64,000 nt of DNA from Candidatus Minthosoma equi. Lineage in GTDB: Bacteria; Bacteroidota; Bacteroidia; Bacteroidales; Bacteroidaceae. The notes below the pieces were generated by a model. It did no database searches and was not told the DNA's origin. It saw only the letters and a program-made list of their open reading frames with translations. Position numbers and translations under genes: made by a program. The stretch lies in assembly GCA_018064885.1 (NCBI GenBank), contig JAGHUI010000045.1, positions 1 to 64,000 of the forward strand. Reading direction: 5' to 3'. Below, piece by piece: positions 44,803 through 51,166 of this stretch (positions are counted from its first letter, which is position 1; the number at the start of each line of letters is the position of its first letter).

Positions 44803-44927
44803 AAAACACAACAGCATTTCCCCTCCTTTTTCTTGCATTTCTCAATAAAAAGCAGTAACTTTGTATTGTAAAATACGGCTTAGGCTTATCCTTGCTGTAT
44901 TTTCACTACTTCCCAACAAGCCTTGTC

Positions 44928-45011
44928 ATTCCAAGGCGTGAAATCACCATTCCAAGTCATGAAATAATTATTCCAAGCCGTGAAATAGTCATTCCAAGGC
45001 TTGAAATCATT
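44928..45011. repeat. 21-bp tandem array, four units
   Basis: The word ATTCCAAG starts at 44928, 44949, 44970 and 44991, exactly 21 bp apart, each followed by n(C/A)(G/T)TGAAAT. In one frame this spells seven-residue repeats (IPRREIT, IPSHEII), but there is no start signal or promoter and the units vary at random codon positions. Read as a non-coding intergenic array, the first of three repeat blocks upstream of the AAA_14 gene. Confidence 0.75.
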
Positions 45012-45017
45012 TCATTA

Positions 45018-45140
45018 CCGAGCAAATGCAAAAAGCATTATCGGGCAAAAGGTAAAAGCATATACGAGCATACGCATCAAGGATACACGAGCAGATGATC
45101 TTGGCATGTATGGGCAGACACATCAAGCACGTACAAGCAG
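45018..45140. repeat. Degenerate GAGCA-rich repeat block
   Basis: Imperfect words such as CGAGCAAATGC, CGGGCAAAAGG, ACGAGCATACGC, ACGAGCAGATG and GGGCAGACACA recur every 20-25 bp. They resemble the GAGCAAAAGCTC words of the dispersed repeats at 15301 and 31346. No coding potential. Confidence 0.4.
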
Positions 45141-45224
45141 ACTTCATTATACATTCACAGCATTAAAATCCTATTATAATGCATAAAAAAGGCAAGATAG
45201 TGATGGTAAATCAAAATAAAGATG

Positions 45225-45232
45225 TAACTTTG
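45225..45232 (+). promoter_or_regulatory. Promoter of the AAA_14 ATPase gene
   Basis: TAACTTTG -7 box. The predicted transcription start falls at the first 33-bp repeat, so all three repeats would lie in the mRNA leader. Confidence 0.7.
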
Positions 45233-45235
45233 CAA

Positions 45236-45322
45236 GCGAAAGTCGCCCGAAAAAGTGTGGCGATTGTAAGAAAAGTCGCCCGAAAAAGTGTGATAATCAC
45301 ACGAAAAGTCGCCCGATTTTAT
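45236..45322. repeat. 33-bp-period leader repeat, locus 1 (three units)
   Basis: AGTCGCCCGA starts at 45241, 45274 and 45307, exactly 33 bp apart, each preceded by GAA or AAA. The first two units continue AAAAGTGTG; the second contains the near-palindrome GTGTGATAATCACAC. The array lies directly after the promoter and 40 nt before the AAA_14 ATG. A matching 3 x 33-bp array precedes the decayed second copy at 46970. Confidence 0.8.
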
Positions 45323-45362
45323 GTATTTAATACTTGTATCCATTTGATTAACACTATAGAAC

Positions 45363-46700
45363 ATGTATCGAAGGAAAATTGAGGACGTTTTACTCCGATG
45401 GAAAGAGACACCAAGTCATAAGCCATTGGTCATAAAAGGTTGCCGTCAGTGTGGCAAAACAAGTTCGGTGAAAGCATTCGCTGAGCAGCACTATAAGCAT
45501 ATCGTTTACATGGATTTTCATGAACAAAAAGAACTGCGTACGTTGTTCCAAGGGTCGCTGAAAGTGGATTATCTTACTGTTGTCATCACGGCAGCAATTC
45601 CTGATGCAACATTCGTTCCTGGCAAGACTTGTATTATTCTTGATGAGATACAAGACTGTCCACAAGCACGAGCTGCGTTGAAGTTCTTCAAACTGGATGG
45701 ACGGTACGATGTTATCTGTACCGGATCGTTATTAGGTGTAAATGGTTACAAATCGGAAGAACAACAGAAGGATGAAGAATCCACATCCGTTCCTGTAGGT
45801 TTTGAGACTATCGTTGACATGTATCCGATGGACTTTGAGGAGTGGCTTTGGGCAAACCAGATACAACAACCTGTAATAGATTTGCTGAAACAATACATGC
45901 AAAATGAATCTCCTGTTCCTGAAGCAATACATCAGCGAATGCGACAGCTGCTGCTGGAGTACGTCATCGTTGGAGGAATGCCCGAAGCTGTCAGCACCTT
46001 CCTCAACACGCATGATGTGAATCAAATGGTTGCTGTGCAGCGAGCCATTATCGATGAGTACAAGGTTGATATGGTGAAGTATGCTCGATCGGAAGATAAA
46101 CCACGCATTCGCGAGTGCTTTGAGTCAATACCTCGCCAGTTGAGTCGCGACAATAAGAAATTCACTTATTCCGTAGTGCGTAAGGGAGGTCGCAGTAAAG
46201 AGTATGTCGGCAGTTTGCAATGGATAGAGGATGCTGGTATTGTGCGTCGATGTCACAACCTCAGCATCACGGAACTGCCACTGAGCGGAAATGCATTGCA
46301 AGACTGTTTCAAAATCTACATGGCTGATACAGGCCTTTTCATAAGTATGCTCGACGAAGGAACTCAATCGGACATTCTGCAAGGACAATTGGGCAGTTTC
46401 AAAGGGGCAATATATGAGAATGTAATGGCAGACATCTTAGGCAAGATGGGGCGTAAGCTTTATTATTACCAAAAGCCCGACAGCATAGAAATTGACTTCG
46501 TGATGCGCTACCAAGGCGAATGCACTCCAATAGAATGCAAGGCACGTACAGGCAATGCCAAATCCATGCAAACGCTTTTGAAGCACCCGGAAAAATACCA
46601 TGTCTATCACGCTCTTAAGCTTGGCGACTATAATGTGGGGCGTAATGGGCCATTACTCACGTTGCCTTTCTATATGGCATTCTTACTTTCTGAGATATAG
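45363..46700 (+). CDS. AAA_14 / DUF4143 ATPase
   Basis: 445 aa. N-terminal AAA domain: Walker A GCRQCGKT (26-33), Walker B IILDEIQD (Asp94, Glu95), and a sensor-like ICTGSLLG. The second half is DUF4143, with IADTGL-like YMADTGLFISML and a PD-(D/E)xK-type signature: EIDF (Asp378) followed by the ExK of PIECKAR (Glu391, Lys393). Such proteins are abundant, often multi-copy and uncharacterised in Bacteroidales. Here the gene is preceded by 3 x 33-bp repeats and followed by a palindromic tail, both found again around a deleted copy 270 bp downstream. Whether it acts on DNA is not known. Confidence 0.88.
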   Translation: MYRRKIEDVLLRWKETPSHKPLVIKGCRQCGKTSSVKAFAEQHYKHIVYMDFHEQKELRTLFQGSLKVDYLTVVITAAIPDATFVPGKTCIILDEIQDCPQARAALKFFKLDGRYDVICTGSLLGVNGYKSEEQQKDEESTSVPVGFETIVDMYPMDFEEWLWANQIQQPVIDLLKQYMQNESPVPEAIHQRMRQLLLEYVIVGGMPEAVSTFLNTHDVNQMVAVQRAIIDEYKVDMVKYARSEDKPRIRECFESIPRQLSRDNKKFTYSVVRKGGRSKEYVGSLQWIEDAGIVRRCHNLSITELPLSGNALQDCFKIYMADTGLFISMLDEGTQSDILQGQLGSFKGAIYENVMADILGKMGRKLYYYQKPDSIEIDFVMRYQGECTPIECKARTGNAKSMQTLLKHPEKYHVYHALKLGDYNVGRNGPLLTLPFYMAFLLSEI

Positions 46701-46713
46701 AGAATACAAACGT

Positions 46714-46855
46714 AATCGAGGCATCCTGCGCTAATGAATAGCAAGGATGCCTCGATTGATAAAATTAGCAGATAGCGGAACCGTCGTCGCTATTCCTTAA
46801 GGTGCAAGAGAGAACCGAAGCTCGACGAAGTCAAACGTTCCCTCTTTTGTATCAT
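46714..46855. repeat. Palindromic tail, copy 1
   Basis: It begins 14 nt after the ATPase stop with a perfect 14-bp hairpin, AATCGAGGCATCCT (46714-46727) with AGGATGCCTCGATT (46744-46757), followed by a shared TTAGCAGATA and a second hairpin around GCAAGAGAGAA. It is repeated as copy 2 at 47273-47397 with roughly 70-75 percent identity by eye. Confidence 0.75.
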
Positions 46856-46885
46856 AATTTCCATGCTTTTTCTTGCACAAATAAA

Positions 46886-46966
46886 AGAAAAGTGTTATTA
46901 TTGTACCATCATTTTATAGGAAAAGTGTATTTTTACACCACCGTATTCACAGGAAAAGTGTAATAG
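46886..46966. repeat. 33-bp-period leader repeat, locus 2 (three units)
   Basis: GAAAAGTGT recurs with AGTG at 46891, 46924 and 46957, again exactly 33 bp apart. The middle unit contains the palindrome GTGTATTTTTACAC. The period, copy number, GAAAAGT core and position before an AAA_14 start all match locus 1, although the unit sequence differs. No consensus TAnnTTTG box was found upstream of this array. Confidence 0.75.
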
Positions 46967-46969
46967 TAA

Positions 46970-47268
46970 ATGCTTAAACGTAAGATTTATAATAAAATAG
47001 AAGCGTACCTAAAAGCACCGTCTCACAAGATGCTCTGATTGACGATCTTGCCCACCTTTCCACAATGCCAATCGAGGTTAAATCAGGCAAGAGCTATACC
47101 GTCCATAGTGCCCTTGATAAGTTCCTTGAAATAAAAGACTATCACATAAATTGCGCTTATATGTTGAGTAATGAAAATATCGTATCCACCGACGGTGCCA
47201 TCACCTACATGCCAATCTACAACATTATGTTCTTTCAACCAGAGAGTGGTGTTATCGGGGAATGGTGA
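46970..47268 (+). pseudogene. Internally deleted AAA_14 / DUF4143 ATPase remnant
   Basis: An ATG at 46970 opens 22 codons reading MLKRKIYNKIEAYLKAPSHK then ML, a typical AAA_14 N-terminus comparable with MYRRKIEDVLLRWKETPSHK of the intact gene. It then hits TGA at 47036. From about 47034, in another frame, the DUF4143 C-terminus resumes: LIDDLAHLST, MPIEVKSGKSYTVHSALDKF (ExK) and YMPIYNIMFF, ending at 47268. About 300-350 codons, including both Walker motifs, are missing. The flanking 33-bp array and tail remain. Confidence 0.8.
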
Positions 47269-47272
47269 AAGC

Positions 47273-47397
47273 AATCGAGGCATCCTGTGCTAATGAATAG
47301 CCACGATGCCTCGAATGGTATAATTAGCAGATAACGGAAAAGCACCTGCTATATTCTAAGATGCAAGAGAGAAACGTCCCCTCCCCTCTTGCATCAT
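47273..47397. repeat. Palindromic tail, copy 2
   Basis: It starts 5 nt after the remnant's stop codon. AATCGAGGCATCCT is identical to copy 1, its pairing arm has decayed (CGATGCCTCGAAT), and a compensating second hairpin is perfect: GATGCAAGAG with CTCTTGCATC. It may also act as terminator for the convergent gene at 47414. Confidence 0.75.
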
Positions 47398-49745: not shown

Positions 49746-51062
49746 TTACTTCTTGTTCAATGGTATGTAAAGTTTGTCAATGCATGAGTCAAGCTCACGC
49801 TTTATAAGAGCTTTGTCAAGCTTTTGACCAATGAAAACGAGCTTCTGCATGCGGTCGCCAAATGTGTCATCCCAATCGCGCTTGAGACCTGGCTCTGCTT
49901 CCATAAGCTTTGCTAGTTCGTCGGCTGGCATTGTAGCGTACCACTGTCCTGCATTCTTGAGCTGCACTTGCTTTCCTGCCTGTTCAAATACGTAGCAGAT
50001 ATGAGTTTCGTCGCTGAAGTAGCAGATGCCTTTGGCACGAATGATGTTCTTTGGCCAGCGGCGTGCAACAAATTCGTCGAAGAGGTTGATATTGAATGGA
50101 TAGCGCTGATAATAGACGTATGTGCCAATACCATATTCTTCTGCTTCTCCTTCACCATCGTGGTGGTGGTGATGATGGTGATGGTGGCAATGCGGATCAT
50201 GGCAATGCTCAGCATCATGGTCGCATTCTTCATCGTCATCGTGATGGTGGTGATCATGATCGTGGTGATGATGATGTTCATCATGCTCATGGTGGTGGTC
50301 ATCTTCATCATCTTCTTCCATTTCATCGACATGTTTTTCTATTTCCTGAATCCATGATGCGGAACCGGCTACGGCATTGAAATCAAACTTGCCTGTACCG
50401 ATAAGTTTGTCAAAGTCAACATCGCAGTAATCGCATTCTATAATCTCTGCCTTTGGCTGGATGGCACGGATGATGGTCTTTACACGGTTGAGTTCATCGG
50501 GTGTAACCTCTGATTTCTTGTTGAGAAGTATTGTGTTGCAGAATTCTATCTGCTGAATGATAAGATTTTCAATATCCTCTTCATCAAGGTCGTGCTTTGT
50601 GAGGTCGTTAGCGCAGTTGAATTCATCCTTCATACGAAGTGCGTCAACAACTGTGACTATACTGTCAAGCAAAGGCACACCGTCTGTCATGGTTTCCTGC
50701 ACAAGCGATGGCACAGAGCATATTGTCTGTGCAATTGGTGCAGGTTCACAAATACCGCTTGCTTCAATAACAATGTAGTCGAAGCGGTGCTGCGAGGTAA
50801 TCTCTGAGAGCTGCTGAACGAGATCCATCTTGAGAGTACAACAGATACATCCATTCTGGAGTGCGACGAGGCTTTCGTCTTTCTTACCTACTACTCCGCC
50901 CTTCTGAATAAGGTCTGCATCGATGTTCACCTCACCTATGTCGTTGACAATGACAGCGAACTTTATACCTTGCTTGTTTGAGAGGATTCTGTTTAAAAGT
51001 GTAGTTTTTCCGCTGCCAAGGTATCCCGTAAGCAGCAGAACTGGTATTGTTGGTATTATCAT
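49746..51062 (-). CDS. CobW/P47K-type GTPase with His-rich metal-binding loop
   Basis: 438 aa from the ATG at 51062; an upstream TTG overlaps the -7 box region and is rejected. Walker A GYLGSGKTT (13-21), the CxCC motif GCICC (71-75), and NKKSEVT-type G4 residues identify the COG0523 family of metal chaperones. Between the GTPase and the CobW C-terminal domain (about 240-300) lies a stretch dominated by His, Asp and Glu, with runs of up to nine His. The family delivers zinc, cobalt or other metals to target enzymes. The metal here is probably zinc by family trend, but no Zur site or zinc gene is adjacent. Confidence 0.9.
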   Translation of the reverse strand: MIIPTIPVLLLTGYLGSGKTTLLNRILSNKQGIKFAVIVNDIGEVNIDADLIQKGGVVGKKDESLVALQNGCICCTLKMDLVQQLSEITSQHRFDYIVIEASGICEPAPIAQTICSVPSLVQETMTDGVPLLDSIVTVVDALRMKDEFNCANDLTKHDLDEEDIENLIIQQIEFCNTILLNKKSEVTPDELNRVKTIIRAIQPKAEIIECDYCDVDFDKLIGTGKFDFNAVAGSASWIQEIEKHVDEMEEDDEDDHHHEHDEHHHHHDHDHHHHDDDEECDHDAEHCHDPHCHHHHHHHHHDGEGEAEEYGIGTYVYYQRYPFNINLFDEFVARRWPKNIIRAKGICYFSDETHICYVFEQAGKQVQLKNAGQWYATMPADELAKLMEAEPGLKRDWDDTFGDRMQKLVFIGQKLDKALIKRELDSCIDKLYIPLNKK

Positions 51063-51085
51063 TACAATTAAATTTTTTAATGTTG

Positions 51086-51093
51086 CAAAGTTA
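51086..51093 (-). promoter_or_regulatory. Promoter of the CobW-type GTPase gene
   Basis: TAACTTTG on the minus strand, 23 nt upstream of the ATG at 51062; it fixes the start downstream of the longer open frame. Confidence 0.7.
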
Positions 51094-51166
51094 CGCAATT
51101 TTCAAGATAAATTGTCTGTATGAATGAATAAAGTTAGTTAATTTACAAAAAAATAAGAATCTCTTA

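Follow-up and report, generated by a model that had tools for sequence, protein, structure and literature searches.

Background

PDC-S01 is a candidate defence protein in which an ATPase is fused to a PD-(D/E)xK domain; according to PMC12988326, which counts 29,494 bacterial and 9,986 archaeal copies, it ranks fourth in frequency among the defence systems of prokaryotes, and most such candidates still await experimental validation. PMC13356809 reports that no other individual locus is as frequent in the rumen genomes it covers. A gene predicted to encode such a protein, of the AAA_14/DUF4143 type, is present in a 64,000-nucleotide stretch of Candidatus Minthosoma equi (assembly GCA_018064885.1, contig JAGHUI010000045.1, positions 1 to 64,000), hereafter called the window, where it follows an array of 33-bp direct repeats. 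Our analysis suggests, with a probability of roughly 0.75, that the ATPase recognises this array by means of its nuclease domain and winged helix and regulates the promoter of its own gene, probably as a repressor.

In plasmid iteron/Rep systems, tandem direct repeats spaced by whole helical turns precede the gene of the binding protein and serve its autorepression. Initiators of the Orc1/Cdc6 type carry, to our knowledge, no nuclease domain. The window shares the tandem repeat layout of the iteron systems, but its protein is a predicted ATPase-nuclease, and Orc1/Cdc6 proteins on origin DNA (2qby) are replication starters, whereas the array described here is a predicted operator. The closest solved folds are the archaeal ATPases PABY2304 (2qen) and SSO1545 (2fna), which share 14-16% sequence identity with the window ATPase, followed by CED-4/NLRs and Orc1/Cdc6. 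The AAA+/PD-(D/E)xK proteins of DUF1703 belong to another Pfam family, and the available portion of PMC1913061 mentions no cis array. PDC-S01 likewise combines an ATPase with a PD-(D/E)xK domain; what is added here is a cis array that the nuclease domain is predicted to read. For the PDC-S01 gene, a term search of the main text of PMC12988326 turned up neither tandem repeats nor a promoter nor autoregulation, and no such arrays are described in the accessible text of the literature searched (PMC12988326, PMC13356809, PMC10855318 and PMC1913061 included). DUF4143 is named in one paper of the open literature searched.

Arrays and ATPase of the window

The initial annotation of this region had described two arrays of 33-bp period and three copies each, one ahead of the ATPase gene and one ahead of a remnant of a second ATPase gene (Table 1). 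Both arrays are real. Indeed, AAGTCGCCCGA starts at 45240, 45273 and 45306 and GAAAAGTGT at 46887, 46920 and 46953, in exact 33-bp steps; the periodicity of array 1 was equalled by 0 of 2000 dinucleotide shuffles at any lag, and that of array 2 by 7 of 2000 at some lag and by 0 at lag 33. The count of three holds for both arrays, except that in unit 3 of array 1 the core is reduced to its 5' half.

The ATPase matches the Pfam families AAA_14 (PF13173; E 2e-21, 76.6 bits, cut-off 27) and DUF4143 (PF13635; E 8e-31, 107.3 bits, cut-off 28.1) and, over its full length (residues 2-443), the PADLOC profile PDC-S01 (504 bits, E 6e-152); by its profile match, it is a PDC-S01 member, and as such an abundant candidate defence protein. 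Its domains are an AAA domain, a helical domain, a winged-helix-like domain (about residues 243-300), assigned from secondary structure and the matches to 2qen, 2fna, CED-4 and Orc1/Cdc6, and a PD-(D/E)xK-like C-terminal domain (about 307-445). The AlphaFold2 (AF2) model of the whole protein (predicted local distance difference test, pLDDT, 92) contains P-loop ATPase, helical and winged-helix domains of the STAND/ORC-like kind, and the model of the C-terminal domain (pLDDT 92) has its best fold matches in VC1899, Can2, Bax1 and BamHI, all of them weak (E 0.005 or weaker). The Walker residues are conserved and the nuclease residues are kept (E352 and E376 in 80/80, D378 in 78/80, E391 and K393 in 79/80).

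Occurrence of the arrays across the family

In the genome of the window, a BLAST search with the window ATPase retrieved six full-length homologs (the window's counted) and two fragments. A 33-bp array lies directly upstream of all six full-length homologs, with cores that differ, and none precedes the two fragments; the window repeat itself occurs once more in the genome, with 2 mismatches. Further full-length DUF4143 proteins of this genome, found by Pfam search (L010, L039, L040), have no detectable array.

The same-genus survey comprised 96 loci (the six of the own genome, plus 30, plus 60 from the upper part of the Pfam matches listed), of which 93 were usable, with a full gene and sufficient upstream sequence. 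Autocorrelation reached at least 0.55 in 49 of them, with best lags of 21 (1 locus), 22 (5), 23 (9), 32 (12), 33 (21) and 42 bp (1) and no other; two of the 49 were judged false (L012, lag 33, coding; L071, lag 21, AT-rich). Among neighbour-gene controls, 35/209 reached this threshold, 18 of them at lags 14, 15, 21 or 22. Such arrays are not equally common before unrelated genes: the best lag was 32 or 33 in 5/209 controls, and the four that were inspected proved to be family paralogs or an intergenic region common with one. Because palindromic arrays of 21-22 bp (TTCATAACTTATGAA, TTCATTAATGAA) also precede unrelated genes in the genus, 22-bp matches were trusted only if the repeat was clade-specific. 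The periods of the family (22, 23, 32 or 33 bp, depending on the clade) amount to two or three helical turns.

In a tree of 133 homologs (the same-genus survey, 13 plasmid loci and further loci), the period tracks the clade, with 31 changes against 60.5 after shuffling and 0 of 200 shuffles as low, an outcome that near-copies favour. Not all DUF4143 proteins have arrays: these are found in several clades, but the largest DUF4143 clade, which has the best DUF4143 scores, is nearly devoid of them (no array in 24 of 27 rows). Homologs are also present in 59 plasmid records; for 13 representatives from six phyla, the best lag was 32 or 33 in 11, while for a Vescimonas plasmid 42 ranked ahead of 33 and for one Bacteroides plasmid there was no array. 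The Collinsella locus (L104) has lag 33 in the plasmid survey and none in the tree set, where the open frame defined how much upstream sequence was used.

A collection scan provided the best 80 of at least 579 relatives, which with the window copy make 81 loci of the window clade. The core AAgTCGtTTGAAAAAGTG precedes the gene in 81/81 of these loci, which also trained the motif, against a background of 116 matches elsewhere in 893,000 positions. The initial annotation had seen GTGTnnnnnTACAC-like palindromes in the units, a description that does not extend to the relatives, whose units are direct repeats (246 units, all in direct orientation, against 2 reverse-strand matches in the same regions). 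The spacing between units is 31-33 bp in 155/165 cases (33 bp in 115, 32 bp in 38 and 31 bp in 2), and a median of 27 bp separates the end of the last unit from the start codon. Autocorrelation, which is free of any motif, gave a best lag of 31-33 in 68 of the 80 fetched relatives. Two further clades have periods of 23 bp (25/27 loci) and of 32-34 bp (23/29, L048 clade); 7 of these 56 loci are shared with the same-genus survey, and four that are broken or cut (L305, L310, L312, L318) were excluded.

A reverse test, in which 149 genomes of the order were searched with a loose two-core pattern, returned nine arrays in eight genomes, and the reversed pattern returned 0. For four of the nine, the family gene that follows is open throughout the fetched sequence; for two it is broken (L226, and L232, recognised from a 20-residue match), and three (L228, L229 and L231, near position 1501) have no family gene within about 1.5 kb; these three may be decayed modules or relocated operators.

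Covariation between the ATPase and its repeats

Residue 398 of the ATPase predicts base 3 of the repeat in 78/80 loci (N or Q with G/C, other residues with T). It is the best of 342 protein columns for this base, and 8.45 of 9 tree-independent contrasts agree with the association, 0 being opposite. Residues 278-280 covary with the other end of the core (Table 1). Covariation of these residues with the core, over loci whose record titles name six phyla, points indirectly to binding of the array by the ATPase. The initial annotation had taken the arrays to be functional, operator- or iteron-like and co-evolving with their ATPase in a self-contained module; 33-bp-type arrays upstream of related ATPases in several phyla, and repeats that covary with particular protein residues, both support this view.

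Phase of the promoter box

The motif TAnnTTTG, which we take to be the Bacteroidota -7 element, was searched for in 54 loci that are Bacteroidota by record title (one, L156, being titled Fibrobacter). It is present within 200 bp in 51/54 loci, with 57 boxes against 6.7 expected. The box starts 17-18 bp past a unit start in 27 loci, 13-15 bp ahead of the next unit in 25, and both in 7; since 18 + 15 = 33, these two positions are one phase, common to 45/51 boxed loci (45/54 overall), the window included. In 20 of the 51 loci (the window among them) the box comes first and the whole array follows; in 21 the whole array comes first, and in 10 the box is flanked by array on both sides. The -7 box is thus built into the register of the array, at either end.

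These positions bear on the leader-RNA option of the initial annotation and on a possible role of the arrays as a translated leader. Where the array lies behind the box, as in the window, it is probably part of the leader transcript; furthermore, a period of 33 bp preserves the codon frame, and the window array has one open frame. Either role is nonetheless highly improbable: periods of 32 and 23 bp break the frame, the whole array precedes the box in the 21 loci mentioned, and core bases covary with the supposed DNA-reading residues. A leader peptide was ruled out because 32 and 23 bp are no codon multiples, and the search for known RNA families gave a single sub-threshold match, taken as chance.

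Autonomy and spread of the module

No neighbour gene family adjoins more than 3/79 loci, which rules out a fixed partner gene. This also bears on the alternative that the arrays are bound by another host protein, a regulator of the ATPase gene: ordinary regulators do use direct repeats embedded in promoters, and binding by the ATPase itself is a prediction, but paralogs of one genome differ in repeat sequence, the repeats covary with residues of the ATPase itself, and no gene recurs beside the module. We consider this explanation quite unlikely.

In 29 same-genus nitrilase loci, no ATPase match was found in the fetched flank (up to 1.5 kb), and in genome G033 the cassette and the nitrilase gene are on different contigs. 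Relatives at 61-62% identity are present in contigs titled Clostridia and Fibrobacter, and copies of the family are present on plasmids and in a phage collection. The lack of a recurrent neighbour, the nitrilase loci without ATPase and the location of the G033 cassette fit a stand-alone module that is spread horizontally. The last two would also suit a selfish element with the array as its iteron-like origin or target, whose ATPase-nuclease would copy, excise or insert the module, and the spacing of the units in whole helical turns, like the relatives at 61-62% identity and the plasmid and phage-collection copies, would agree with this. The surroundings of the module showed neither conserved ends nor an integrase gene that recurs, target duplications not having been systematically searched; moreover, the hairpin tails described below are lineage-specific and the promoter phase points to regulation, so that we regard the selfish element as unlikely.

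Cassette, hairpin tails and surrounding repeats

Table 1. Features of the window discussed in the text, with the evidence for each
Feature	Position	Strand	Evidence and remarks
Two-gene cassette, extent common to the window and G033	45161..47352	+	Cassette and nitrilase gene on different contigs in G033
-7 promoter box TAACTTTG, Bacteroidota-type	45225..45232	+	Direct sequence reading; starts 15 bp ahead of the first unit of array 1
Array 1, three 33-bp units, core AAGTCGCCCGAAAAAGTGTG	45240..45338	+	0/2000 shuffles
Intact ATPase, 445 amino acids, AAA_14/DUF4143	45363..46700	+	Pfam, AF2 and PADLOC matches
Codons for residues 278-280, at the start of helix 278-290 (presumed recognition helix)	46194..46202	+	Covary with core columns 16-18
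Codon of N398, predicted specificity residue, few residues past ExK (E391, K393)	46554..46556	+	Covariation
Hairpin tail 1, terminator-like, lineage-specific	46709..46862	+	Alignment, folding, genus survey
Array 2, three GAAAAGTGT cores, 33-bp spacing	46887..46978	+	Sequence and shuffles; similar array before intact second ATPase in L062, L079
Second family ATPase, remnant: first ~20 codons joined to C-terminal part	46970..47268	+	Alignment to intact copies L062, L079
Hairpin tail 2	47272..47376	+	80% identity to tail 1

The initial description of an intact ATPase followed by a remnant, both with like tails, stands for the window itself, given the Pfam match, the deletion relative to L062 and the 80% identity of the two tails across 109 bp, but the tail does not belong to a general architecture. 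Compared with the intact gene of G033 (L062), locus 2 is an internal deletion in which about 1.05 kb is gone at 47034/47035; the G033 cassette, with its second ATPase intact, is 93% identical to the window over 45161-47034 and 91% over 47035-47352. Tail 1 forms a strong predicted hairpin (z -4.35). The tail has matches in 4/41 same-genus genomes, where it follows two unlike ATPases and also their C-terminal remnants (L271, L272), and it occurs, whole or partial, where the fetched flank has no match to the family (L273, L277, L278, L279, L281, L282). Its rarity and these last occurrences rule it out as a conserved part of the module. It is a separate, lineage-specific element, which may serve as a terminator or as a site where recombination shuffles modules.

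Upstream of the ATPase module, positions 44926-45011 contain four 21-bp repeats (ATTCCAAGGCGTGAAAT...), which the palindromic 21-22-bp arrays found before unrelated genes of the genus resemble; they are a separate, generic repeat class. Between them and the cassette edge, a degenerate series of 22-23 bp (CGAGCA/CGGGCA/CAAGCA, 45013-45150) may be the decayed array of another family member. Elsewhere in the window, His-rich repeats (50160-50327) lie within the frame of a CobW-like GTPase (49746-51098), named by eye and without a profile search.

Proposed mechanism

In the proposed autoregulation by the ATPase, each unit of 32-33 bp (22-23 bp in other clades) would correspond to one direct-repeat core, of which the PD-(D/E)xK-like C-terminal domain would read the 5' part (AAgTC) and the recognition helix of the winged helix the 3' part (GTG). 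As the spacing equals whole helical turns, successive ATPase subunits would lie on the same face of the DNA, where they could form a nucleotide-dependent oligomer. Since the -7 box keeps a constant phase, either within the array or next to it, an occupied array would block or gate transcription of the ATPase gene itself, with autorepression as the most likely form. A trigger, perhaps infection, considering that the protein matches PDC-S01, would release the complex and turn on both the nuclease and its expression. Arrays, periods, phase, covariation, the conserved Walker and nuclease residues and the lack of a recurrent neighbour are computed results; direct binding, oligomerisation, repression and the trigger are what we infer. 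Some results weigh against the winged-helix half of the DNA-reading proposal.

A more elaborate version, which we consider rather unlikely, is that the repeats act as a safety catch for a widespread immune nuclease: the ATP-bound ATPase would be kept in an inactive state on its promoter repeats, in the form of an ordered oligomer whose nuclease domain serves as their sequence reader, until infection strips it off and thereby simultaneously releases an active nuclease and opens the promoter. The stripping could be due to breakdown of the host DNA, to competing DNA or to a phage product, and a few residues would write the private address of each paralog, allowing many copies per genome without cross-regulation.

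Significance

In summary, the cis array and the candidate residue-to-base code of the ATPase give PDC-S01 proteins a predicted DNA target. The single-residue specificity prediction comes with a substrate that is directly usable in reporter assays and in assays of binding, ATPase and nuclease activity; the code also suggests how many paralogs could stay insulated from one another within one genome.
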